This document shows, in pieces, positions 11,651-62,826 of a stretch of 64,000 nucleotides of DNA (position 1 is its first letter; every line of letters begins with the position of its first letter). The notes beneath the pieces are model-generated. The model saw nothing but the letters and a program-made list of their open reading frames with translations, made no database searches and had not been told where the DNA came from. This DNA is from Pseudomonas nunensis (GTDB taxonomy: Bacteria; Pseudomonadota; Gammaproteobacteria; Pseudomonadales; Pseudomonadaceae). The stretch covers positions 5,520,501 through 5,584,500 of the forward strand of contig NZ_CP101125.1 in NCBI RefSeq assembly GCF_024296925.1, written 5' to 3'. The translations under genes and the position numbers were made by a program.

Positions 11651-12784
11651 TCACTTCTGTTTTTCCAGCTGGTGGTATTTGCCGTCCTTGTCCCACTGGT
11701 AAACCACGTAGTCGGAGACTTTCAAGTCGCCCTTGCTGTCCCAGGTCTTCTCGCCCATGACGGTCTTGACCGGGTTTTTCTTCAGCCACTCGGCGGCTTT
11801 TTCGCCACTGTTGGACTTGGAGCCGTTGAAGGCAGCAGCCAGGGTCTGGACCGAAGCGTAGGCGTACAGGGTGTAGCCTTCAGGCTCGGTGCCGGCTTTG
11901 CGGAACGCGTCTACGACAGTTTTGCTGTCTGGCAGCAGGCGCGGGTCAGCGCCGAAAGTCATCAGCACGCCGTCGACGTATTGCGGGCCGCCAGCGGTGG
12001 TCACCAGTTCGTCGGTCACGATGCCGTCATCGGACATGAATTTCACGTCTTTCAGGCCTTCGGTACGCAGCTGTTTAACCAGTGGACCCGCCTCTGGGTG
12101 CAGGCCGCCGAAGTAGACCACGTCGGCACCGGCCGCACGGATCTTGGTAACCACGGCACTGAAGTCTTTCTCGCCGCGGGTCAGGCCTTCGTACAGCACT
12201 GGCGTTACGCCGCGCTTGACCAGTTGAGCCTTGGTAGCATCCGCCAGGCCTTGGCCGTAGGTGTCTTTGTCGTGCAGTACGGCAACTTTCTTGCCCTTGA
12301 GCACGTCGACGATGTAGTCGCCGGCCACGATGCCTTGCTGGTCGTCACGCCCGCACATACGGAACATGGCGCTCAAGCCGCGTTCGGTAACTTGTGGGTT
12401 GGTGGAACCTGGAGTGATCGCGATGATGCCCGCTTCGTCGTAGATCTCGGAGGCCGGGATGGTCGACGAGGAGCAGAAGTGACCGACTACGCCAGCGACT
12501 TTCTGGTTGGTCAGGTCCTTGGCGACCGTCACAGCCTGTTTCGGTTCGCAGGCGTCATCGCCCTTCACCAGTACGATTTTTTCCCCGTTGACGCCGCCCG
12601 ATGCGTTGATCGCGTCGGCTGCTGCCTGTGCACCCTTCATGTACTGCTCGCCAAATGCCGCGTTGGCGCCAGTCATTGGACCTGCCACACCGATTTTCAC
12701 ATCAGCTTGTGCAAACGCAGAAACACCCAACGCAGTTGCCACTGCGAGGGCCAGAAAGCCTTTCTTGTAAAACGTCTGGGACAT
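11651..12784 (-). CDS. livK: Branched-chain amino acid ABC transporter binding protein
   Basis: A 377-residue periplasmic leucine-binding-type protein. The signal peptide covers about 26 residues (KKGFLALAVATALGVSAFAQA) and the mature part begins DVKIGVAGPMTG. Typical blocks HFCSSSTIPASEIYDEAG and ITPGSTNPQVTERG are present. The start is the ATG at 12784, with GGAG about 11 bases upstream; an in-frame TTG at 12799 lacks support. Specificity could be Leu/Ile/Val or broader; it is distinct from my memory of P. aeruginosa BraC and looks like a paralogue. First gene of the liv operon. Confidence 0.9.
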   Translation of the reverse strand: MSQTFYKKGFLALAVATALGVSAFAQADVKIGVAGPMTGANAAFGEQYMKGAQAAADAINASGGVNGEKIVLVKGDDACEPKQAVTVAKDLTNQKVAGVVGHFCSSSTIPASEIYDEAGIIAITPGSTNPQVTERGLSAMFRMCGRDDQQGIVAGDYIVDVLKGKKVAVLHDKDTYGQGLADATKAQLVKRGVTPVLYEGLTRGEKDFSAVVTKIRAAGADVVYFGGLHPEAGPLVKQLRTEGLKDVKFMSDDGIVTDELVTTAGGPQYVDGVLMTFGADPRLLPDSKTVVDAFRKAGTEPEGYTLYAYASVQTLAAAFNGSKSNSGEKAAEWLKKNPVKTVMGEKTWDSKGDLKVSDYVVYQWDKDGKYHQLEKQK

Positions 12785-12843
12785 GAGGTGGTGCTCCAAG
12801 GTTTTTTTTTAGTTGGCACTGCGACTTCTCTGGTTGCTCAGAG

Positions 12844-12858
12844 CAAGGGCCGTGCCAT
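12844..12858 (-). promoter_or_regulatory. Sigma-54 promoter for livKHMGF
   Basis: On the minus strand this reads TGGCACGGCCCTTGC, an exact match to TGGCAC-N5-TTGC with GG and GC separated by 10 bases. The predicted start is near 12832, giving a leader of about 48 bases before the livK ATG. This implies RpoN-dependent, probably nitrogen-regulated, expression of the transporter. Confidence 0.85.
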
Positions 12859-13148: not shown

Positions 13149-14432
13149 TCAAATCACGATCCGCAAGCACTGGCCTGCGTGATACAGCGAAAAACCGGCC
13201 TCATACAGACAGCTGCGCAGGCCGACACCGGCCAGGGGCTGCATCGGTGCGAACGGAATCGGTAGCGCTTGAGGATTTCCGTTACACAAATAGTCGGCAA
13301 AGGCTTTCCCGACCACCGTGCCAGTTGTCACGCCCCGGCCGTTGTAACCGGTAACTGCCACTAAACCGGGCGCCGGTTCGAACAGGCGCATCAGGTGATC
13401 AGGGGTAAAGGCGATGCAACCGGTCCAGGTGCACTCCCATTCAACCGGTTTCAGGTAGGGGAAATAATGCTGCTGGACTCGATCGGCCCAGGCTTTCAGG
13501 AACCAGGTCGGTTTCTGATTGCCATTGCCGAGGCTGCCGAGCAGCAAGCGTCCATCTTTGTCGCGACGGATGCTGCTGAGGACCTGGCGCGTATCCCAGG
13601 AACCCTGGCCGCCGGGCAGGATCTGTTGCGCGGCGTCGTCGGTCAGCGGGACCGAGGCCACTTGGTAGTAATAACCGGGGAAGAAATTGCGCCGCAGTTC
13701 AGTCCAGTCGCCTTCGGTGTAGGCGTTGGAGGCGATCACGACTTGATCGGCGAGTACCGAGCCTTGGGTGGTCTGGACTGACCACTTTTGGCCCTGACGT
13801 TCGAGTCGGGTCACCGGAGAATGATCGAACAGTTGACCGCCGAGGGCGGTCGCCGCTTTAGCCAGCCCGGTGGTGTAGGCCATCGGGTTGATGGTGCCAG
13901 CACGTCGATCCAGCAACGCGGCGGCGATCTTTTTGGTCCCGGTGGCTTGTTCGCAGGCCTGGCCGGTCAACAGTTCAACCGGTGCTCCGCGACGTTTCCA
14001 TTGTTCTTCGCGACTGCGCAGATCAGCTTCGCCACGGCTGTTGTGCGCCATGTGCAGCGTGCCTTCACGGCGTAATTGGCAATCGATTTTGTACTTGTCC
14101 ACAAGGCTGAACACCAGGGACGGTGCGGCGCCGAGCATACGGTTGAGCTGACTGCCGACCGCTTCGCCGAACCCGGCTTCAATCTCATCCGGCGGGATCC
14201 ACATCCCGGCGTTGACCAGCCCGACGTTGCGTCCAGACCCGCCATGCCCGGCGCGATGGGCTTCCAGCACGCAGACGCTTTTACCCGCCTCCAACAAATG
14301 CACGGCTGCCGACAGCCCGGTAAACCCGGCGCCGATGACGCAGACATCGACCTTCACTTCACCCTTGAGCGCCGCATTGTCGGGCCTTTGTGGCGTCAGT
14401 TTTTCCCACAGACACTCTTCGCGTAACGGCAT
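13149..14432 (-). CDS. amaA: L-pipecolate oxidase (FAD-dependent)
   Basis: A 427-residue FAD-dependent amine oxidase of the DAO/GlpO fold. The dinucleotide motif GAGFTG is at residues 34-39 and GHGGSGRNVGLVNAG follows near 63. With amaB next to it, it is best read as AmaA, which oxidises L-pipecolate to delta-1-piperideine-6-carboxylate in the D-lysine/pipecolate route of P. putida. The order amaA, amaB, LysR regulator matches that species as I recall it. About 160 bases with a REP pair separate it from amaB, so the two may have separate transcripts. Confidence 0.82.
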   Translation of the reverse strand: MPLREECLWEKLTPQRPDNAALKGEVKVDVCVIGAGFTGLSAAVHLLEAGKSVCVLEAHRAGHGGSGRNVGLVNAGMWIPPDEIEAGFGEAVGSQLNRMLGAAPSLVFSLVDKYKIDCQLRREGTLHMAHNSRGEADLRSREEQWKRRGAPVELLTGQACEQATGTKKIAAALLDRRAGTINPMAYTTGLAKAATALGGQLFDHSPVTRLERQGQKWSVQTTQGSVLADQVVIASNAYTEGDWTELRRNFFPGYYYQVASVPLTDDAAQQILPGGQGSWDTRQVLSSIRRDKDGRLLLGSLGNGNQKPTWFLKAWADRVQQHYFPYLKPVEWECTWTGCIAFTPDHLMRLFEPAPGLVAVTGYNGRGVTTGTVVGKAFADYLCNGNPQALPIPFAPMQPLAGVGLRSCLYEAGFSLYHAGQCLRIVI

Positions 14433-14475
14433 TGCCAGACTCCAATCAGAAACCTAACCAACACACCATTCCCAG

Positions 14476-14577
14476 TGTGGGAGCGGGCTTGCTCGCGAAG
14501 GCGGCGTCACATCCAACATTTGTGCTGAATGACACACCGCTTTCGCGAGCAAGCCCGCTCCCACAGGGGATCTTCAT
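14476..14577. repeat. REP inverted pair
   Basis: GTGGGAGCGGGCTTGCTCGC and its complement, separated by about 50 bases, between amaB (upstream) and amaA. It may act as a barrier or stabiliser between the two messages. Confidence 0.9.
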
Positions 14578-14594
14578 GGGTTCAAGCGTTGCGC

Positions 14595-16085
14595 TTAGTC
14601 GAAGGTAATCCCCTGCGCCAACGGCAACTCCAGCGAATAGTTCACGGTGTTGGTCTGGCGGCGCATGTAGCCGCGCCATGCGTCGGAGCCCGACTCACGG
14701 CCACCGCCGGTTTCCTTCTCGCCACCAAACGCGCCGCCGATTTCCGCGCCGCTCGGGCCGATGTTGACGTTGGCGATGCCGCAGTCGCTGCCCACCGCCG
14801 ACATGAACTGCTCGGCTTCACGCACGTCGGTGGTGAAGATGCACGAGGACAGGCCTTGCGGTACAGCGTTGTTCAGGCGCAGGGCTTCAGCGAAATCGGT
14901 GTAACCCACCACGTAAAGGATCGGCGCGAAGGTTTCATCGCGAACCACCTCGCTTTGCTCTGGCATTTCCACGATCGCCGGGGACACGTAGTAAGCATTC
15001 GGGAACTTGTCTTCCAGCTGACGCTTGCCGCCAAACACCCGGCCGCCTTCGCTCAAGGCTTGTTCCAGCGCTTCCTGCATGTTTTCGAAGCTGTTTTTGT
15101 CGATCAGCGGGCCGATCAGGTTGCCTTCCAGCGGATTGCCGATGCGCACCTTGGAGTACGCAGCCTTCAGGCGAGTGACGATTTCTTCTTTTACCGATTC
15201 GTGGGCAATCAGGCGACGCAGGGTGGTGCAACGCTGGCCGGCGGTGCCGACGGCGCTGAACAGGATTGCGCGAACGGCCATGTCCAGGTCGGCGCTTGGG
15301 CCGAGGATCATTGCATTGTTGCCGCCCAGCTCAAGGATGCTGCGAGCAAAACGCGCGGCGATTTTCGGCGCCACTTCACGGCCCATACGGGTGCTGCCGG
15401 TGGCGCTGATCAGCGCGACACGCGGGTCATCGACCAGCGCTTCGCCGGCATCGCGGCCGCCGATGATCACTTGGCTCAGGTGTGGAGGTGCATCGCTGAA
15501 GTTTTTCAGTACGCGGTCGAACAGTGCCTGGCAGGCCAAAGCGGTCAGCGGGGTTTTTTCTGACGGTTTCCAGATCACCGGGTTACCGCAAACCAGCGCC
15601 AGCGTGGTGTTCCAGGCCCAGACCGCGACCGGGAAGTTGAACGCACTGATTACGCCGACAACGCCCAGCGGGTGCCAGGTTTCGCGCATGTGGTGGCCTG
15701 GACGCTCGGAAGCGATGGTCAAGCCGTACAACTGGCGGGACAGACCGACGGCGAAGTCGCAGATGTCGATCATTTCCTGAACTTCGCCCAGGCCTTCCTG
15801 GGTAATCTTGCCGGCTTCCCAGGAGACCAGCTCACCGAGATCGGCCTTGTATTCACGCAGAATGTCGCCCAGTTGGCGCACCAGTTCGCCACGGCGCGGT
15901 GCCGGGACCTTACGCCACAATTCGAACGCATGATCTGCGCGACTGATGTGTTGCTCGACTTCAGCGGCACCTTCCCAGTTCACGGCAGCGATCTGGCTGC
16001 CATCGATCGGCGAATGCACGGGCACTTTGCCGTTCTGGTACAGGGCCGGGTTCACACCAAGACGATCAAGCAATGCGGCAACCAT
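14595..16085 (-). CDS. amaB: Piperideine-6-carboxylate / aminoadipate-semialdehyde dehydrogenase
   Basis: A 496-residue NAD(P)+-dependent aldehyde dehydrogenase related to antiquitin. The catalytic Cys is at residue 286 (GTAGQRCTT), the general-base Glu at 252 (ILELGGNN), and the cofactor region SAFNFPVAVWAWN at about 147-159. It should oxidise L-2-aminoadipate semialdehyde to 2-aminoadipate after AmaA, leading lysine carbon to central metabolism. It is read divergently from the LysR gene across a 184-base gap, which probably holds the operators. Confidence 0.87.
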   Translation of the reverse strand: MVAALLDRLGVNPALYQNGKVPVHSPIDGSQIAAVNWEGAAEVEQHISRADHAFELWRKVPAPRRGELVRQLGDILREYKADLGELVSWEAGKITQEGLGEVQEMIDICDFAVGLSRQLYGLTIASERPGHHMRETWHPLGVVGVISAFNFPVAVWAWNTTLALVCGNPVIWKPSEKTPLTALACQALFDRVLKNFSDAPPHLSQVIIGGRDAGEALVDDPRVALISATGSTRMGREVAPKIAARFARSILELGGNNAMILGPSADLDMAVRAILFSAVGTAGQRCTTLRRLIAHESVKEEIVTRLKAAYSKVRIGNPLEGNLIGPLIDKNSFENMQEALEQALSEGGRVFGGKRQLEDKFPNAYYVSPAIVEMPEQSEVVRDETFAPILYVVGYTDFAEALRLNNAVPQGLSSCIFTTDVREAEQFMSAVGSDCGIANVNIGPSGAEIGGAFGGEKETGGGRESGSDAWRGYMRRQTNTVNYSLELPLAQGITFD

Positions 16086-21758: not shown

Positions 21759-21848
21759 CTGTGGGAGCGGGCTTGCTCGCGAATGCGGTGTGTCAGCCAC
21801 ATTGATATCGACTGATACACCGCATTCGCGAGCAAGCCCGCTCCCACA
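21759..21848. repeat. REP inverted pair
   Basis: REP pair of the GTGGGAGCGGGCTTGCTCGC type downstream of the transglutaminase-like gene and upstream of the Nudix gene; it may mark the 3' end of the amidoligase operon transcript. Confidence 0.9.
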
Positions 21849-21860
21849 AGGGGATTTCGG

Positions 21861-22751
21861 TTAATCCAGTGGCATCACGGTGACTCGGACTTCCGGGTCA
21901 TGATTGCCGCCGCCAAGAATCACCCCGCGCAACGGCGACACATCGGAAAAATCCCGGCCCCAGGCCAGGGTGATGTGTTCCAGCGCCGGTTGCACATTGT
22001 TGGTCGGGTCGAAATCCACCCAACCGAGCACCGGGCAAAACACCGACACCCAGGCATGGGACGCATCGGCGCCGATCAGTCGCGGCTGGCCCGGTGGTGG
22101 CTGGGTCAGCAGATAACCGCTGATGTAGCGCGCCGCCAGACCGCGCGAGCGCACGCACGCGAGCATCAGGTGCGCGAAGTCCTGACAGACGCCACGCCGA
22201 CGCTCCAGCACTTCCACCAGCGGCGTGGCGACCTGGGTTGCCTCGGCATCGAAGGTGAACTCGCTGAAAATCTTCTCCATCAACGCCTGAACACCCAGCA
22301 GCAACGGCCGTCCCGGAGGAAAACAGCTTTCCGAGAAATCGACGAAGTTGCGTTTCAAGTGCACGTACGGCGATTCGAAACGATAACGACAGGCTTCCAG
22401 CAACTCAGGTGAAAGCGGCTGGCTGCTGTAAGTCAGCGCGTTGCGGGTTTCTTCCCAGGCCGGCGACAGATTGAAATCCAGGACCGGCCGGGCCAGTACT
22501 TCAACGGTGAGTTCGGCATTCACCAGCAGCTCATCGTGGGGGCGTTCGAAAGCGAGTCGAGTCAGCGGATTGCCGAACACGTCCAGCTCATCGCGACGGG
22601 TCGTCGGGTCCGGGCTGATCAGCAACGCCTGCGCGGTGCAGCGCTGCCAGGTGCAGGGGCGCGGCCACAGGTGCGCCAGTTGCTGGGCCAGGGACACCGG
22701 GCTGTCGTAGTGATAATGGGTGTCGTGGAAAATCTGGTAACGGGCATTCAT
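21861..22751 (-). CDS. Transglutaminase-like cysteine peptidase/amidase
   Basis: A 296-residue protein with an N-terminal bacterial transglutaminase-associated domain (about 1-150, starting YQIFHDTHYHYDSPV) and a transglutaminase-like catalytic core. The triad is clear: Cys189 (RRRGVCQDFAHL), His232 (ADASHAWVSVF) and Asp248 (GWVDFDPTN). Without a signal peptide it should be cytoplasmic. Its ATG overlaps the stop of the ATP-grasp/alpha-E gene (TGATG), so the two are co-translated. In related clusters this enzyme accompanies amidoligases and may cleave or form isopeptide-type bonds. The substrate is unknown. Confidence 0.85.
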   Translation of the reverse strand: MNARYQIFHDTHYHYDSPVSLAQQLAHLWPRPCTWQRCTAQALLISPDPTTRRDELDVFGNPLTRLAFERPHDELLVNAELTVEVLARPVLDFNLSPAWEETRNALTYSSQPLSPELLEACRYRFESPYVHLKRNFVDFSESCFPPGRPLLLGVQALMEKIFSEFTFDAEATQVATPLVEVLERRRGVCQDFAHLMLACVRSRGLAARYISGYLLTQPPPGQPRLIGADASHAWVSVFCPVLGWVDFDPTNNVQPALEHITLAWGRDFSDVSPLRGVILGGGNHDPEVRVTVMPLD

Positions 22752-25237
22752 CAGACGGACACCGTGCGCTGGCTGACATCATCGACATGGGCAAAATGGC
22801 GCAAGGCCAGGCGATCCGAGACCTGGCCGCTGGCATCGGCGATTTCTTGGAGCAAATCGGCCAGGCCCTCGACCGCTGCGTGAACGCTGGCCTCGCCAAA
22901 CAGCGAGTTCTCCAGGCAGCCCAGATCGAAGTGCATCAAGCGCTCCACCAACCGTGGCAGCCCCGCCTCTCGCGGCGCACCGAAATCGTCATTCAGGCGC
23001 TTCAATGTGCGGGTCACCAGTTTCAACTGGAACAGCACCGCGTGCGGGTTCTGCTCATCCAGCAACAACAGGTCGAGCACCGGAATCAACTGCGCCACCG
23101 CCAGATAGCGCGAGCGGTAGGTGATGCTGCTGTTGCCCAGCTCCAGCAGCCACTCAAGCCCGGCTTGATCGAAGGCGCCGGCACCGCGCAGGAATGCCGC
23201 GAGGCTGCTGCTGAGAAACTGCAAACGCTCGATGCGCCGGCCGATCATCAGGAAACGCCAGCCTTCGTCCCGAGTCATGTCGTCCAGGGCAAACCCGGAC
23301 AGCGCCGCCAGGGACATCACCAAGCGGTTGAGGAAATCCAGCAACTCGCCGAAATCCGGCTCTTCGGTTTCCAGCTCCATGGCCTCGCGCTGCAATTCCA
23401 CCAGCGCCTGCCAGTTTTCCCGGGAGAGCTTGCCGCGCACTTGCGAGGCCGCCCACTGCAGTCGTTGCAGGTTGGAACGCAAGCTGAACGGCCAGTCATC
23501 GCCGAGCAACGCCGCCAGCAAACGCTCCGGCAACTCGCCTTCCTCGGGCAACAGATTCAGGCGTTCACCAAGGTCTACCGCCGCTTCCAGCGCTTGCGGA
23601 TCATCGCCATCGACGTAACGCGCCAGCATGACCCGCAGCAACCGCGCACTGTCATCGCAACGCTCGCAGTACCGACCAAACCAGAACAAATTCTCGACCA
23701 CCCGCGACGGCAGATACGGATCGCGCCGCACCAGATCATGGACACCGATGGTGCGCCGGGTTTTCCATTGTTCGCCGCTTGGCGCCCGTTCACCCAGCAC
23801 CCAAGTGTCCTTGCTCGCGCCACCGCGCTGCATCGATACCACCTCGGCATCGGCTTCAGCGGCGACACGGGTCAGGCCGCCGGGCAGCACCCGATAACCA
23901 TCACGACTGGCCACCGCGTACACGCGCATGCCGATGGCCCGGGGTTGCAGTTGACCGTCCTCGGCCTGCCAGATCGGCGCCTGGGACAGCTGCGCCAGTT
24001 CTTGCGCGACATAAGCGTAAGGCCGCGCCTGCATGCGCTCAGCCAGCGCCTGACGCTGTTTTTCACTCAGATCTCGGCCAAACACAGGCGCGAAGCTCTG
24101 GGACGGGAATGCCGGTTTGATCAGTAACTCCGGCAACTTCTCCAAGGCCTGGGCGAGCACCGGCGCTTCACCGCACCACCAGGTCGCAATGGACGGCAGG
24201 ATAAGTTCTTCGCCGAACAGGAATTGATTGATCCTTGGCAGAAAACCCAGCAGTCCCGGCGATTCCAGTACGCCGCTGCCCAGGGCATTGGCGACCAGCA
24301 CCCGCCCCTGACGCACGGCCTCCAGCAAACCCGGCACGCCGAGGGCCGAGTCGGTGCGCAGTTCCAGAGGGTCGCAGAAGTCATCGTCGAGGCGCCGCAT
24401 GATCGCGTGCACCCGGCGCAGGCCGCTCAAGGTTTTCAGGTAGACGGTAGCGTCGCGCACCGTCAGGTCGCCGCCCTCCACCAGCGGATAACCGAGCTGG
24501 CGTGCGAGGTACAAATGTTCGAAATAGCTTTCGTTGAACCGCCCCGGCGTCAGCAGCACGATCAGCGGTGCTTCATCGTCACTCGGTGCCTGGCGGGCCA
24601 GGGTTTCCTGCAAGGTGCGGAAAAACCCGGCGAGGTGCTGCACCTTCAAATCACGGTACAACTCGGGAAACGCCCGAGACACGATGGTGCGGTTTTCCAG
24701 CGCATAACCGGCACCGGACGGCGCCTGGGTCCGGTCCGCCGTCACCCACCAGCGACCGTCCGGGGTGCGCGCCAGGTCCACGGCGTACAGGTGCAGAAAG
24801 GCGCCGTCAGGCGGAGAAATCCCCTGACACGGCCACAGGAAATTGTTGTGCCCGAACACCAGTTCGGCCGGCAGCAGCCCTTCGGCGATCAGACGCTGTG
24901 GGCCATACAGGTCCGCCAGTACCGCGTTGAGCAAGCGCGCCCGCTGGGCAATCCCGGCGGACAGTTGCTGCCACTCATCGGCAGCAATCACATGGGGCAA
25001 CAGGTCCAGTTCCCACGGACGATCGGCGCCCTTGGGGTCGGCGTAGACGTTGTAGGTCACGCCGTTTTCCTGGATTTGCCGGGTCAGCAACGCCTGGCGC
25101 TGCACCAGTTGCGTCGGGGTGCTGCGCTGCAATTGGTCGAACAGCCGACGCCAGTGCGGGCGCACCGCGCCGCTGTCGTCGAGCAGTTCGTGATAAGTCC
25201 CCGCCGTCAGCGGGTAGCGGTCAAGCAGGTCAGGCAT
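22751..25237 (-). CDS. Circularly permuted ATP-grasp / alpha-E fusion protein
   Basis: An 828-residue two-domain protein. Roughly residues 80-470 form a circularly permuted ATP-grasp ligase (blocks WWVTADRTQAPSGAGYALEN, PRINQFLFGEEL and LLIKPAF); residues about 510-820 form the helical alpha-E domain (ENLFWFGRYCERCDDSARLL). ATP-grasp enzymes ligate carboxylates to amines; the alpha-E domain has no known activity. The start MPDLLDRYPLTAG at 25237 is preferred to an upstream TTG at 25258. It lies between the DUF2126 gene and the transglutaminase-like gene, so it is a likely amide ligase in a common pathway. Confidence 0.83.
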   Translation of the reverse strand: MPDLLDRYPLTAGTYHELLDDSGAVRPHWRRLFDQLQRSTPTQLVQRQALLTRQIQENGVTYNVYADPKGADRPWELDLLPHVIAADEWQQLSAGIAQRARLLNAVLADLYGPQRLIAEGLLPAELVFGHNNFLWPCQGISPPDGAFLHLYAVDLARTPDGRWWVTADRTQAPSGAGYALENRTIVSRAFPELYRDLKVQHLAGFFRTLQETLARQAPSDDEAPLIVLLTPGRFNESYFEHLYLARQLGYPLVEGGDLTVRDATVYLKTLSGLRRVHAIMRRLDDDFCDPLELRTDSALGVPGLLEAVRQGRVLVANALGSGVLESPGLLGFLPRINQFLFGEELILPSIATWWCGEAPVLAQALEKLPELLIKPAFPSQSFAPVFGRDLSEKQRQALAERMQARPYAYVAQELAQLSQAPIWQAEDGQLQPRAIGMRVYAVASRDGYRVLPGGLTRVAAEADAEVVSMQRGGASKDTWVLGERAPSGEQWKTRRTIGVHDLVRRDPYLPSRVVENLFWFGRYCERCDDSARLLRVMLARYVDGDDPQALEAAVDLGERLNLLPEEGELPERLLAALLGDDWPFSLRSNLQRLQWAASQVRGKLSRENWQALVELQREAMELETEEPDFGELLDFLNRLVMSLAALSGFALDDMTRDEGWRFLMIGRRIERLQFLSSSLAAFLRGAGAFDQAGLEWLLELGNSSITYRSRYLAVAQLIPVLDLLLLDEQNPHAVLFQLKLVTRTLKRLNDDFGAPREAGLPRLVERLMHFDLGCLENSLFGEASVHAAVEGLADLLQEIADASGQVSDRLALRHFAHVDDVSQRTVSV

Positions 25238-25285
25238 GGAAAGCTCGGCAGACAGCAAAGAACGGTCAGACTAACGCAGGCTCAT

Positions 25286-25316
25286 GACGCTCGGATATAC
25301 GAAAAATCCGAGCGTC
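25286..25316 (-). terminator. Intercistronic hairpin inside the amidoligase operon
   Basis: GACGCTCGGAT and ATCCGAGCGTC form an 11-bp stem around a nine-base loop, in the 88-base gap between the DUF2126 stop and the ATP-grasp gene. No T run follows on the minus strand. It may attenuate or stabilise the message. Confidence 0.55.
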
Positions 25317-25325
25317 GTGTAGGGC

Positions 25326-28300
25326 TTAGAAACGTCGCAAATCGAGTGTCATCGGCAGCTCGTCGTTAATCGTCACGTTCGGTATAGGAAGTTTCCCAGG
25401 GGTGTGTCCGATTCGGAAGAAACGCGCCATTCGCCGGCTCTCTGCTTCGTTGGCGTTCACCGGCAGGCTGTCGTAGTTGCGCCCGCCCGGATGGGCGACG
25501 TGGTACTGACAGCCACCCAGCGAGCGCTCCATCCAAGTATCGAGCAGGTCGAACACCAGTGGCGCGTGGACCGGGATGGTCGGTTGCAGGCAGTTGAACG
25601 GTTGCCAGGCGCGGAACCGCACGCCTGCGACGAACTCTCCCACCCGACCGGTCGGCTGCAACGGCACCGGAATGCCATTGCAGGTCAGCAGATAACGTTG
25701 CGGCGCCAGGCCGGTGACTTTGACCTGCAAGCGCTCCAGGGACGAATCCACATAACGCACCGTCCCGCCGACCGCGCCCTCCTCGCCCAGCACATGCCAA
25801 GGCTCCAAGGCCTGGCGTACTTCCAGCTCGATGCCACTGACGGCGTAATCGCCGACCTTGGGAAAGCGGAATTCCAGATGCGCGGCAAACCACTCGGCGC
25901 GCACCGGGTAACCGGCAGCGTTGAGATCGACGATCACATCGGCGAAATCCTGTTCGATAAAGTGCGGCAACAGGAAACGATCGTGCAGCTCAGTGCCCCA
26001 GCGTGCCAGTTTCGGCGGTGCATAAGGCTCGCGCCAGAACCGCGCCACCAGCGCCCGCAGCAACAATTGCTGAGCCAGGCTCATGCGCGCATGGGGCGGC
26101 ATTTCAAAGGCGCGCAATTCCAGCAAGCCGAGACGCCCGGTGGTGCCGTCCGGCGAATAGAGTTTGTCGACGCAGAATTCGGCGCGATGAGTGTTGCCGG
26201 TGACATCGATCAACAGGTTGCGTAACAACCGATCCACCAGCCACGGCGCGCACTCTTCCCCCGGTTTCGGCATCTGTGCGAAGGCGATTTCCAGTTCATA
26301 CAACGAGTCGTTACGCGCCTCGTCCACACGTGGCGCCTGGGACGTCGGGCCGATGAACAACCCGGAAAACAGGTAGGACAAGGACGGATGGTTATGCCAG
26401 TAACTGATCAGGCTGCGCAGCAAGTCCGGACGCCGCAGGAACGGTGAATCGGCAGGTGTGGCGCCACCCAGTACGAAATGGTTACCGCCGCCAGTGCCGG
26501 TGTGCCGGCCATCGATCATAAATTTTTCGGTGGTCAGCCGGGTCTGGCGCGCTTCTTCGTACAGAAACTCGGTGCGCTCAACCAATTCGTCCCACGTCGC
26601 GGACGGCTGCACGTTGACCTCAATCACGCCCGGATCCGGGGTGATGCGGAAATTGCTCAGGCGCGGATCGCTCGGTGGTTCATAGCCTTCCAGCAACACC
26701 GGGCAATGCAGTTCCTGCGCCGTGGCCTCGATGGCGGTGACCAGCTCCAGGTAATCCTCGACCCGCTCAAGGGGCGGCATGAACAGGTACAAGCGGCCGT
26801 CCCGCGCTTCGGCACAGAACGCGGTGCGGGTCAGCCAATCGGCGGATTCGTCGATTTCAATATCCCGTTCAATCGCTTCCGCAGGCGTGCCTGGACTGTT
26901 CAACTGCTGAGTGTCCGGAAGCGCCGGGAATTCCTGGTTCGGGTCGTTAGGGTAGATGAACGGATATTCCGCGGCTTTCACCCAAGGCTGTGACCCCAGC
27001 GGCAAGCGATAACCCAGCGGCGAATCCCCCGGCACCAACCGGCAATGTTCATCGCGCAGATACCAGCGACCGCTCTGCCACTGATCGCCCTTGGCGGTGC
27101 GCGCCAGCGGCAGAACTTGGCCGATGACCTTGTCCAGACCTTGGCCGAACACTTTGCGCAGGCGCGCACGCTCCAACGGTTCTTCCAGGCGTGAATCTTC
27201 GGCGCTGACGTTCAGCGGCAAAGTGCCTTCGCGCCAGAGGTAATAGAAATTGTCTTCGTAGGCCGGGAACACAAAGCGTGTCGGAATTTTCAGGCGTTCG
27301 GCGACACTCGCGAGAAAACGCCCGGCCAGTTCGCCATCGGCACCGTAGTCTTCCTGCTCATCGGCAATCAGCGCGCTGTTGTGCCAGATCGGCACGCCGT
27401 CCCGACGCCAGTAGCAGTTCAGCGACCAACGCGGCAGTTGTTCGCCGGGATACCACTTGCCCTGGCCGAAATGCACCAGGCCTTTGGGTGCGTAGTGTTT
27501 GCGCATGCGCTGGAACAGTTCGGCAGACAGCCGACGCTTGTCCGGGCCGAGGGCGGCGGTGTTCCATTCCGCGCCGTCCGGGTCGTCGATGGAGACGAAG
27601 GTCGGTTCGCCACCCATGGTCAAGCGCACGTCGCCTTCCAGCAGGTCGGCATCGATCTGCCGACCCAGCGCCTGGATCGCCAGCCACTGGTCTTCGGTGT
27701 AGGGCTTTGTAACCCGTGGCGCTTCCCAAATCCGCTCCACGGACATTTCGTGGGTGAATTCGCACTCGCACGGTTCCACCAAGCCACTGATCGGTGCCGC
27801 AGAGCCCGGATCGGGACTACACGCCAACGGAATGTGTCCTTCACCGGCAAACAGCCCTGACGTCGCGTCCAGGCCGATCCAGCCGGCGCCGGGCAAGTAG
27901 ACCTCGCACCAGGCGTGCAGGTCGGTGAAGTCCACTTCGGTACCCGAGGGACCGTCGAGGCTTTTGACGTCGGCGGTGAGCTGGATCAGGTAGCCAGAGA
28001 CGAAACGCGCCGCCAGCCCGAGGTTGCGCAGCAATTGCACCAGCAGCCACGCCGAATCGCGGCAGGAACCGGAGGCGTGTTCGAGGGTGTGTTCGGGGGT
28101 TTGAACACCGGGCTCCATGCGGATCAGGTAACCGATGTCTTCGCTCAAGCGCTGGTTGAGCGCGACGAGGAAATCCACGCTGGGCAGCGGCGTGCGGTCG
28201 ATGCCGTCCAGATAGGCCTTGAACTTCGGCGTCAGGGGCAAGGTTTCAAGGTACGGCGCCAGTTCCTTGCGCTCATCGGCGGCGTAGGTAAACGGGATCT

Positions 28301-28601
28301 TTTCCGCGTAGGGCTCAAGGAAGAAATCGAACGGATTGAATACCGCCATTTCCGCCAGCAGATCGACTTCGATCCGCAGCTCATCGGTTTTCTCCGGGAA
28401 CACCAGGCGTGCCAGGTAGTTGCCCTGGGGGTCTTGCTGCCAGTTGATGAAATGCTGCTCGGGCGAGACTTTCAGCGCATAGGACAAAATCCGCGTGCGA
28501 CTGTGGGCTGCCGGGCGCAGGCGAACGATCTGCGGACCGAGCTCGACGGCGCGGTCGTAGCGGTAATGCGTGACGTGATGCAATGCGACATGAATCGACA
28601 C
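25326..28601 (-). CDS. Transglutaminase-like / DUF2126 putative amidoligase
   Basis: A 1091-residue protein. Residues about 1-255 are a bacterial transglutaminase-like domain with triad Cys180 (HASGSCRDSAWL), His229 (TDLHAWCEV) and Asp245 (GLDATSG). The rest is DUF2126, a putative amidoligase family with a glutamine-synthetase-like fold (family description from recall). DVRLTMGGEPTFVSIDD at 324-340, EVNVQPS at 661-667 and GTGGGNHFVLGG at 702-713 are candidate metal and ATP-binding segments. The start is GTG at 28601 with AGGAGG seven bases upstream. A sigma-54 promoter lies just ahead. Substrates and products are unknown. Confidence 0.85.
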   Translation of the reverse strand: MSIHVALHHVTHYRYDRAVELGPQIVRLRPAAHSRTRILSYALKVSPEQHFINWQQDPQGNYLARLVFPEKTDELRIEVDLLAEMAVFNPFDFFLEPYAEKIPFTYAADERKELAPYLETLPLTPKFKAYLDGIDRTPLPSVDFLVALNQRLSEDIGYLIRMEPGVQTPEHTLEHASGSCRDSAWLLVQLLRNLGLAARFVSGYLIQLTADVKSLDGPSGTEVDFTDLHAWCEVYLPGAGWIGLDATSGLFAGEGHIPLACSPDPGSAAPISGLVEPCECEFTHEMSVERIWEAPRVTKPYTEDQWLAIQALGRQIDADLLEGDVRLTMGGEPTFVSIDDPDGAEWNTAALGPDKRRLSAELFQRMRKHYAPKGLVHFGQGKWYPGEQLPRWSLNCYWRRDGVPIWHNSALIADEQEDYGADGELAGRFLASVAERLKIPTRFVFPAYEDNFYYLWREGTLPLNVSAEDSRLEEPLERARLRKVFGQGLDKVIGQVLPLARTAKGDQWQSGRWYLRDEHCRLVPGDSPLGYRLPLGSQPWVKAAEYPFIYPNDPNQEFPALPDTQQLNSPGTPAEAIERDIEIDESADWLTRTAFCAEARDGRLYLFMPPLERVEDYLELVTAIEATAQELHCPVLLEGYEPPSDPRLSNFRITPDPGVIEVNVQPSATWDELVERTEFLYEEARQTRLTTEKFMIDGRHTGTGGGNHFVLGGATPADSPFLRRPDLLRSLISYWHNHPSLSYLFSGLFIGPTSQAPRVDEARNDSLYELEIAFAQMPKPGEECAPWLVDRLLRNLLIDVTGNTHRAEFCVDKLYSPDGTTGRLGLLELRAFEMPPHARMSLAQQLLLRALVARFWREPYAPPKLARWGTELHDRFLLPHFIEQDFADVIVDLNAAGYPVRAEWFAAHLEFRFPKVGDYAVSGIELEVRQALEPWHVLGEEGAVGGTVRYVDSSLERLQVKVTGLAPQRYLLTCNGIPVPLQPTGRVGEFVAGVRFRAWQPFNCLQPTIPVHAPLVFDLLDTWMERSLGGCQYHVAHPGGRNYDSLPVNANEAESRRMARFFRIGHTPGKLPIPNVTINDELPMTLDLRRF

Positions 28602-28640: not shown

Positions 28641-28655
28641 GCAAGACTTATGCCA
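28641..28655 (-). promoter_or_regulatory. Sigma-54 promoter for the amidoligase operon
   Basis: The minus strand reads TGGCATAAGTCTTGC, matching TGGCAC-N5-TTGC at all but one position with correct GG-N10-GC spacing. The transcript should start near 28629, 28 bases before the GTG start, with the AGGAGG site inside the leader. It separates this operon from the membrane-protein gene upstream. Confidence 0.75.
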
Positions 28656-28774: not shown

Positions 28775-29296
28775 TCATCGATGGGGTTTCAGGCTGGCTT
28801 CAAGACGCTTGATCCGCTGACGGATGCGGGCGCCCACTTGCAACACCAGAATCGCGCGCTGATAGCGACGCTTGCTCATCAAATACAAGCCGATCAGCGA
28901 CGGAATTGCCGCGATCCAGGTAAACCCCACATGGCTTGCTTCAAGCATCGCCAGCAATGTGCTCGACAGGCAGAACACCAGCATGCAGAACAAACCCCAG
29001 ACCGCTTTGGGGTAACCGCGAATCAACGCGATAAAACACCCTGACATCAGCAAACACCCGCCCATCATGCCGATCAGGATGTACTCCATCATCGGGTAAT
29101 CCCGTGGGAAAAATACCTCGCCGAACAACGTGCCGGTCAACGAAATGGCGAAAATCGTCATCATCATGACCACTACATGAATCCACCCGTAACGCCGCGC
29201 ATAGGGTTGCCAGGCCAGCCAATGGGCAAACTTCAACTGCATGAGTTTGTCGGCAGTCGATTGTTGTTGCGAGGGGGATTTCTTGCGGCGAGCCAT
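28775..29296 (-). CDS. Small integral membrane protein, unknown function
   Basis: A 173-residue protein. After a basic N terminus (MARRKKSPSQQQ) come four hydrophobic segments, at about residues 40-62, 72-92, 99-119 and 121-140, and a basic C-terminal tail. The ATG at 29296 has AAGGAAG upstream; the longer frame to 29341 runs into a terminator. It is on the same strand as the amidoligase operon, 173 bases ahead of it, but the sigma-54 promoter between them argues for separate control. No family recognised with certainty. Confidence 0.7.
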   Translation of the reverse strand: MARRKKSPSQQQSTADKLMQLKFAHWLAWQPYARRYGWIHVVVMMMTIFAISLTGTLFGEVFFPRDYPMMEYILIGMMGGCLLMSGCFIALIRGYPKAVWGLFCMLVFCLSSTLLAMLEASHVGFTWIAAIPSLIGLYLMSKRRYQRAILVLQVGARIRQRIKRLEASLKPHR

Positions 29297-39451: not shown

Positions 39452-39538
39452 GCCCAGATGGTGAAATTGGTAGACACGCCAGCTTCAGGTGCTGGTGACC
39501 GCAAGGTCGTGGAAGTTCGAGTCTTCTTCTGGGCACCA
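39452..39538 (+). tRNA. tRNA-Leu (CAG)
   Basis: An 87-base class II tRNA. The acceptor arm GCCCAGA pairs with TCTGGGC and CCA is encoded. Anticodon stem CCAGC/GCTGG with loop TTCAGGT puts anticodon CAG at 39486-39488 (codon CUG). A long variable arm, as expected for leucine, follows. Confidence 0.96.
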
Positions 39539-39576
39539 ATTTCGAGCTTGAGATTAGATCAATTTCAAGGCTCACA

Positions 39577-39604
39577 CAAAAACCCGCGAAAGCGGGTTTT
39601 TTGC
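39577..39604 (+). terminator. Terminator of the first tRNA-Leu unit
   Basis: Stem AAAACCCGC / GCGGGTTTT around GAAA with a following T run. Confidence 0.88.
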
Positions 39605-39641
39605 ATTCAGGGCTTCTGATTTATTAAAACCAAATCAGGGG

Positions 39642-39670
39642 TTTACAGATTAAAAAGCTCTCCGTATAGT
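39642..39670 (+). promoter_or_regulatory. Sigma-70 promoter of the second tRNA-Leu unit
   Basis: -35 TTTACA (39642-39647) and -10 TATAGT (39665-39670), 17-bp spacing, nearly the same as the promoter of the first unit. Confidence 0.8.
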
Positions 39671-39704
39671 GCGCCACATCAACAGCGGCAACGTTGCTGA
39701 TACT

Positions 39705-39791
39705 GCCCAGATGGTGAAATTGGTAGACACGCCAGCTTCAGGTGCTGGTGACCGCAAGGTCGTGGAAGTTCGAGTCTTCTTCTGGGCACCA
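39705..39791 (+). tRNA. tRNA-Leu (CAG), second copy
   Basis: Identical to the first tRNA-Leu over all 87 bases, offset by 253 bases; anticodon CAG at 39739-39741. It has its own promoter and terminator, so it is an independent transcription unit produced by tandem duplication. Confidence 0.96.
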
Positions 39792-61700: not shown

Positions 61701-62826
61701 AGGTCGTCTATCAGGCCGCCTTCGCGGGCAAACCTCGCTCCTACAGGGACCGTGTCCGCGCTAAAAATGAATCAGGAGAACGCGCGCGCCCTAGCCAGGT
61801 CGGCTATCAGGCCGCCTCGCGGTGCTGTTGCGGTGCACGCCCCCTCGAGGGCATGCCGAGCCTGGGCGAGGCACCGAACGAAAGGGGCAAAAGCGCTTTG
61901 GTTACTTTGGCGCTCTTCCAAAGTGACCCGCTGTAAGAGCGGAACCCAAAGCAGCCGTTACCGCAGAAACGGATATGCATACCCTCCAAAAATAGACCGA
62001 CTCGAAGGCCGCCATCGCGAGCAAGCTCGCTCCCACAATTTGATCGGTGTACATCTGCAAGAGACAGGTCGGCTATCAGGCCGCCTTCGCGGGCAAGCCT
62101 CGCTCCTACAGGGACCGTGTCCGCGCTAAAAATGAATCAGGAGAACGCGCGCGCCCTAGCCAGGTCGGCTATCAGGCCGCCTCGCGATGCTGTGGCGGTG
62201 TACGCCCCCTCGAGAGGCCGAGTGGAGGTTCTGCGCAGTGGGCAACCCGGCATGGATGCGGGGTTAGCCGCCCCCGGCCATGGATGGCCGATGGCGGCGG
62301 GCCCACGGAGCAGGACCGGAACGAGGGCATGCCGAGCCTGGGCGAGGCACCGAACGAAAGGGGCAAAAGCGCTTTGGTTACTTTGGCGCTCTTCCAAAGT
62401 GACCCGCTGTAAGAGCGGAACCCTAAGCAGCCGTTACCGCAGAAATGGATATGCACACCCTCCAAAAATAGATCGACTCGAAGGCCGCCATCGCGAGCAA
62501 GCTCGCTCCCACAATTTAATCGGAGTACATCTGCAAGAGACAGGTCGGCTATCAGGCCGCCTTCGCGAGCAAGCTCGCTCCCACAATTTGATCGGTGTAC
62601 ATCTGCAAGAGACAGGTCGGTTATCAGGCCGCCTTCGCGAGCAGGCTCGCTCCCACAGTTGATCGGTGTACATCTGCAAAATACAGGTCGGTTATCAGGC
62701 CGCCTTCGCGAGCAAGCCCGCTCCCACAGTTGATCGATGTACATCAGCAAAAGGCGGGTCGGCTATCAGGCCGTCTTCGCGGGCAAGCCTCGCTCCTACA
62801 GGGACCGCGCCCACGCTGAGCATAAA
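61701..62826. repeat. Head-to-tail REP array with long direct repeats
   Basis: Eight units, each headed by AGGTCGGCTATCAGGCCG or a close variant, start at 61701, 61797, 62066, 62162, 62542, 62614, 62685 and 62756, all in one orientation. The first pair and second pair form a long direct repeat (61701-62065 and 62066-62541). The last four are simple units of about 71 bases, each with one REP and mostly a TGTACATC tail. Small frames here (for example 61807-61989 and 62172-62750) only translate the repeats and are not called as genes. Confidence 0.88.

Follow-up and report, generated by a model that had tools for sequence, protein, structure and literature searches.

A transglutaminase-like, DUF2126 and ATP-grasp operon of Pseudomonas nunensis: a candidate nitrogen-starvation amide ligase/hydrolase module with a probable pseudo-ligase

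Three adjacent genes on the minus strand of the stretch analysed here (64,000 nucleotides, further referred to as the window) combine two ligase-type domains with two transglutaminase-like (TG-like) enzymes, and the question is which of these parts could make or break amide bonds and under what growth conditions they act. The genome is a single contig of 7,328,926 bases. The ORF listing of the window gives products of 1091, 828 and 296 aa. Gene 1 (25326..28601, minus strand, GTG start) matches Bact_transglu_N, Transglut_core and DUF2126; its TG-like N-terminal part (residues 1-275) is encoded at 27777..28601 and the DUF2126 domain (residues 276-1089; PF09899, 1351 bits, positions 1-826 of the 826-position profile) at 25335..27776, both on the minus strand. 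Gene 2 (22751..25237, minus strand) encodes a circularly permuted ATP-grasp domain (CP_ATPgrasp_2, PF14403, 529 bits; AG1 below) fused to an alpha-E domain (PF04168, 223 bits; aE1); it has 828 aa from ATG and 835 aa if read from an upstream TTG. Gene 3 (21861..22751, minus strand) encodes a stand-alone TG-like enzyme (Bact_transglu_N and Transglut_core) and has base 22751 in common with gene 2. The ORF and Pfam calls thus bear out the strand, sizes, domains and one-base overlap given by the first-pass annotation. The GTG start of gene 1 is supported by the block GCAGGAGGC(A)CGCCGTG, which is kept in 13/13 aligned upstream regions, two of which have it one base shorter. Among the best 120 of the 7999 candidates scored in each search, the closest proteins are from Pseudomonas where the source is named, in line with a Pseudomonas-like genome.

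The neighbours of the operon are housekeeping genes: a NUDIX gene downstream, and YgiQ radical SAM and DnaB genes upstream. An ORF of 154 aa on the same strand upstream of the operon (28775-29239) looks membranous by eye; it has no Pfam match, and its sequence is not kept upstream of the operon in relatives. The first-pass annotation saw no export or resistance gene beside the operon, and indeed none is obvious; the gene set looks cytoplasmic. Membership in a defence system was rejected, as a PADLOC search with the three proteins gave no match. The spacer of genes 1 and 2 contains a hairpin (about 25290-25325) that is not conserved, being seen by eye in 3/10 aligned spacers. Elsewhere in the window, L-pipecolate oxidase (AmaA) and L-piperidine-6-carboxylate dehydrogenase genes lie at 13149-16085 on the minus strand (both above NCBIfam cut-offs), two tandem tRNA-Leu (cag) genes at 39452-39791, and a partial match to the TwoAYGGAY RNA family at 62240-62304 (44.5 bits, gathering score 43). 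The 23-base element GTGGGAGCGGGCTTGCTCGCGAA, which we take to be REP-like, has 22 matches with at most 2 mismatches between 706 and 62727 (0 expected), many of them in inverted pairs; one pair, at 21761-21847, lies shortly beyond the downstream end of the operon.

Both TG-like parts retain a Cys-His-Asp triad, as had been read from the window alone: C180/H229/D245 of gene 1 is identical in 74/74 aligned fused homologues, and C189/H232/D248 of gene 3 in 68/68 aligned stand-alone homologues. In the alpha-E domain (residues 509-815; 22793..23713, minus strand) E525 and R526 are invariant and E670 and R671 are conserved in at least 90% of 38 sequences; these ER motifs are also kept in a separate alignment of the 20 aE1 rows that passed the length filter.

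The ATP-grasp domain of gene 2 was compared with its stand-alone paralogues (AG2). Assignment to AG1 or AG2 followed phmmer scores against the proteins of the window and of the own genome, not the motifs, and the alignment holds 74 AG1 rows including the window protein and 29 AG2 rows including the paralogue from the same genome, one match of each type having been removed by the length filter. Glu158 and Asn160 of AG2 are present in 29/29 AG2 rows and absent from AG1 (Glu 0/74, Asn 0/74), Arg occupying the Asn160 position in 72/74 AG1 rows. The degenerate metal motif of the window protein reads A167-D168-R169 (24731..24739, minus strand), against E-D-N in the paralogues. The GGYG loop is found in 29/29 AG2 rows, and its four residues are kept in 2, 8, 1 and 3 of the 74 AG1 rows, respectively; the window protein has Q380-S-F-A383 instead (24089..24100, minus strand). 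We take Glu158 and Asn160 to be the counterparts of E330 and N332 of E. coli Gss, presumably magnesium ligands. Positions 330 and 332 of E. coli Gss are E and N, and the motifs were mapped to this protein by eye and spacing because hhalign of GspS against AG1 and AG2 gave no useful alignment.

Family membership of AG1 is sound, both by the Pfam score and by the match to a protein of solved structure (PDB 3n6x, E 3.6e-93). A tree built from 75 rows unites AG1 in a single clade (100/100); the branches are long, and the program warns of long-branch joins. Judged by substitution rates, AG1 is under purifying selection and is not decaying: dN/dS against four relatives equals 0.055, 0.106, 0.078 and 0.201, similar to the other domains, and AG1 has conserved residues of its own. 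Motif loss together with purifying selection leads us to read AG1 as a conserved pseudo-ligase. The fused ATP-grasp is thus probably not a ligase, several charged residues being still common to it and AG2; since these residues (D154, R282, D284, D285) are kept, an altered activity is possible. The earlier count of two amide ligases rested on family names, and does not stand for the alpha-E fusion, which is devoid of the catalytic motifs in 74/74 homologues. As far as our searches show, this family-wide loss of ATP-grasp motifs is reported here for the first time; in the literature searched, pseudoenzyme and ATP-grasp occurred together in one match, on TTLL12. An intact set comprising AG2, alpha-E and a third TG-like gene is located in a second locus of the same genome (L004:5353-8537), about 1.34 Mb off.

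For the analysis of gene order, the best 80 DUF2126 loci from a scan of genome contigs were retained, so that this sample leans to close relatives. The AG1 gene comes directly after DUF2126 on the same strand in 66 of these 80 loci; in the other 14 it is on the stretch but apart (8), absent with room for it (4), or cut off by the contig end (2). Sixty-four of the 66 directly following AG1 genes are fused to alpha-E, and the remaining two are truncated by the contig end. A stand-alone TG-like gene comes next in 59/66, a count that omits the TG-like genes of L077 (a long ORF reading) and L081 (about 1 kb further on); four of the seven loci lacking it are at a contig end. This conserved order supports the reading of the three genes as a single operon. 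The pair of AG2 and alpha-E is on the same stretch in 28/60 non-Pseudomonas loci and in 0/20 Pseudomonas-group loci (19 with Pseudomonas names, plus 'gamma proteobacterium L18') among the best 80. Across 299 sampled Pseudomonadota genomes, DUF2126 is present in 84. All of these (84/84) have a CP_ATPgrasp_2 match and 79/84 have at least two such genes, versus 10/77 of the genomes with CP_ATPgrasp_2 but without DUF2126; therefore the DUF2126 operon accompanies an extra ATP-grasp copy. Such gene sets are common, and the system is a widespread one, already proposed but uncharacterised.

A TGGCAT-N5-TTGC sequence is located at 28641..28655 (minus strand), 53-54 bases before the GTG of gene 1. We take it, by its fit to the consensus, to be a sigma-54-type -24/-12 promoter. 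The strict pattern has two matches in the window, 0.66 being expected; the second, at 12843-12857, is just upstream of a branched-chain amino acid type binding-protein gene (Peripla_BP_6, 11651-12857). At 52-54 bases before the DUF2126 gene the strict pattern occurs in 20/20 Pseudomonas-group loci (0.08 expected), and it precedes DUF2126 in 6/60 other loci (0.09 expected); given that the loci are related, these and the following promoter counts are not independent trials. In 13 aligned upstream regions TGGCA and TTGC are invariant, and most of the flanking sequence varies. By a loose score tested with shuffles, a site precedes DUF2126 in 20/20 Pseudomonas-group loci, in 30/44 of the other loci that lack a same-strand AG2 upstream (one of them borderline at 0.05), and in just 1/16 loci with AG2 in that place. 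AG2 itself is preceded by a loose site in 35/49 cases and by a strict one in 8/49 (0.09 expected). The controls for the loose score gave 3/54 before AG1, 1/50 before the stand-alone TG-like gene and 2/180 in random windows. In the own genome, TGGCACGGGCCTTGC stands 49 bases before AG2, whose locus also holds a palindrome matching 9/11 fixed NtrC positions. Before the window operon no convincing NtrC site was found, the best candidates matching 8/11 fixed positions. To the extent of our searches, the conserved sigma-54-type promoter before this operon is also new.

Published expression data concern sister gene sets. The cluster I35_5080-83 of Burkholderia cenocepacia H111 consists of DUF404/407, DUF403, transglutaminase-like and large transglutaminase-like genes and is listed among the common targets of sigma-54 and NtrC, with log2 changes of -8.2, -9.4, -9.4 and -6.0 in the ntrC mutant (PMC5491218). 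I35_5083 is described there as a 'large protein containing transglutaminase-like domain'; from a gene order like that of locus L076, it probably corresponds to the TG-DUF2126 gene. In Pseudomonas putida, PP_2685 and PP_2688 show log2 changes of 4.44 and 3.99 on nitrate versus ammonium (PMC8050072), and PP2685-2687 are up under nitrogen limitation (PMC3325844). According to the data given in PMC7801951, PP_2686-2688 go up under nitrogen limitation by 11 to 15-fold (wild type) and 14 to 20-fold (rpoN mutant), PP_2685 being hardly up in either; the rise in the mutant is evidence against a strict need for sigma-54 in the P. putida set, though urtA-C, known NtrC targets, behave in the same way in that table. 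The passages of these papers on P. putida name no DUF2126 gene, and the data from both species describe the sister set. In marine metagenomes these domains co-vary with urea metabolism (PMC3597751). The term DUF2126 gave no match in the literature searched. The earlier statement that there is no known phenotype was incomplete: it omitted the published nitrogen-limitation and NtrC regulation of the sister sets (PMC5491218, PMC8050072, PMC7801951, PMC3325844), and also the tagging or peptide system that Iyer et al. (2009) put forward. Nitrogen limitation, the growth condition proposed in the first-pass annotation, is supported by this regulation and by the sigma-54-type promoter, which may link the window operon to the response of the sister set.

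The explanation that we somewhat favour is a nitrogen-starvation amide ligase/hydrolase module with one candidate ligase (DUF2126), one pseudo-ligase and a sigma-54 promoter. The promoter would drive the operon under nitrogen starvation, and its products would act in the cytoplasm on a compound with an amide linkage. DUF2126 would be the one candidate ATP-dependent ligase of the operon, and the fused and stand-alone TG-like parts would be cysteine hydrolases or acyl-transferases breaking or exchanging the bond. AG1 would be a conserved pseudo-enzyme, probably binding a substrate or a partner and not making bonds, while the intact ATP-grasp/alpha-E/transglutaminase set would be that of the second locus, under its own sigma-54-type promoter. 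The net effect might go in either direction, with nitrogen released or recaptured from amide conjugates, as in a synthetase/amidase pair. More tentatively, and with somewhat less than an even chance, a duplicated ATP-grasp/alpha-E/TG triad may have split into an active ligase and an alpha-E-fused pseudo-ligase, forming a sigma-54 nitrogen-starvation system of Pseudomonadota and Verrucomicrobiota in which the pseudo-ligase would be a substrate-holding or regulatory partner of the active paralogue and DUF2126. For practical purposes, the conserved promoter gives a growth condition for seeking the product, and the loss of motifs in AG1 points ligation assays to DUF2126 and the stand-alone ATP-grasp, away from the alpha-E fusion.

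Four other explanations were weighed. Protein or peptide tagging, in which the ligases would attach a peptide or amino acid tag to proteins, the TG-like enzymes would take it off or pass it on, and proteasome homologues of the Anbu type would process the tagged proteins, is an idea of Iyer et al. (2009) discussed in PMC5666114 and PMC6376114, and we consider it unlikely for the window operon. Protein turnover goes up in nitrogen starvation, and Anbu is found in the sister operons of relatives (11/21 AG2 loci inspected in the own and other genomes). On the other hand, it occurs in only 1 of the best 80 DUF2126 stretches; taken together, these counts make Anbu an optional partner of the AG2 set and no constant component of the DUF2126 operon. 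A family search of the own genome found no Anbu, the single PF00227 match being HslV-sized, and a search with an Anbu protein of a relative gave no match, a weak result as this search had no positive control; an Anbu partnership of the window operon was therefore rejected. At least two PF00227 matches are present in 31/84 DUF2126 genomes. No tag peptide gene was seen, and a study of the Anbu operon found neither stable complexes nor peptidase activity of Anbu (PMC6376114).

Amine scavenging is a special case of the favoured module, and in this specific form quite unlikely. DUF2126 would join an amine serving as nitrogen source to an acid such as glutamate, and hydrolysis of the conjugate would fall to the cysteine enzymes; PuuA/PuuD is the model for scavenging by conjugation. 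The sigma-54-type promoter and the presence of a ligase-type domain and a cysteine hydrolase in one chain fit this scheme, but the conserved gene set includes no oxidase, aminotransferase or transporter, and the own genome already carries 8 Gln-synt_C genes. No recurrent extra neighbour gene was accepted, as no listed cluster exceeds 9/60 non-Pseudomonas loci among the best 80: the top one, ComEC-like by reading, is at 9/60 and a zinc-peptidase-like one at 5/60. PF15887, taken for the latter, is found in the own genome 87 kb from the second locus.

A further reading, improbable in our estimate, makes DUF2126 a non-ligase and the operon a set of hydrolases accompanied by structural partners. 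The search for a solved structural relative of DUF2126 found none, and the comparison with glutamine synthetases (GS) by hhalign was not significant (P about 0.06-0.2), even with doubled profiles allowing for permutation. Against the non-ligase reading, invariant charged residues are dense in DUF2126 (38 sequences), the GS score is reached in just 2/150 column shuffles, the match falling at the PGVIEVN...KFM stretch, and Pfam labels the family a putative amidoligase. The GS likeness is only suggestive; for this reason, and with no solved relative found, ligase activity of DUF2126 is an expectation from family naming.

The first-pass version, with two active ligases and a peptide-like metabolite that the operon would form and break down in the cytoplasm, agrees with the Pfam membership of both domains, the charged residues common to AG1 and AG2 and a Lys kept in 56/74 AG1 rows, but with the Glu/Asn motif and the glycine loop lost in 74/74 rows it is the least probable of the explanations considered.

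Among known systems, the Anbu operon (P. putida PP_2685-2688, Yersinia bercovieri, Pseudomonas aeruginosa) resembles the window operon in bringing together circularly permuted ATP-grasp, alpha-E and TG-like proteins. The P. putida operon also has nitrogen-limitation expression (PMC8050072, PMC7801951, PMC3325844), expression of the Anbu operon being given as unchanged in several conditions in PMC5666114. The homologous ATP-grasp of this operon frees phosphate from ATP (PMC6376114). Unlike the Anbu operon, the window operon has its ATP-grasp fused to alpha-E and devoid of catalytic motifs, contains DUF2126 in addition, and was not found with Anbu. In locus L141 the DUF2126 operon is divergent beside a complete AG2/alpha-E/transglutaminase/Anbu operon, both systems being in one place. 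The B. cenocepacia cluster (PMC5491218) is similar to the window operon in all its gene types, from DUF404/407 and DUF403 to the TG-like and large TG-like genes, its order being that of L076; it is headed by an intact ATP-grasp/alpha-E pair, which in the window genome is at another locus.

The solved relative of AG1, 3n6x, a putative glutathionylspermidine synthase, aligns with residues 27-488 of the 835-aa reading and has LEDNLR and GSGGYG where the window protein has TADRTQ and PSQSFA. The system proposed by Iyer et al. (2009) reportedly unites a permuted ATP-grasp and a permuted GS-like ligase with an NTN peptidase and an alpha-helical domain. E. coli Gss combines a papain-like amidase and an ATP-dependent synthetase in one chain as a make-and-break pair. 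Its synthetase is an ATP-grasp (PF03738) and not DUF2126, and the own genome has a separate PF03738 gene; its amidase part and the TG-like parts of the window operon are presumably related in fold.
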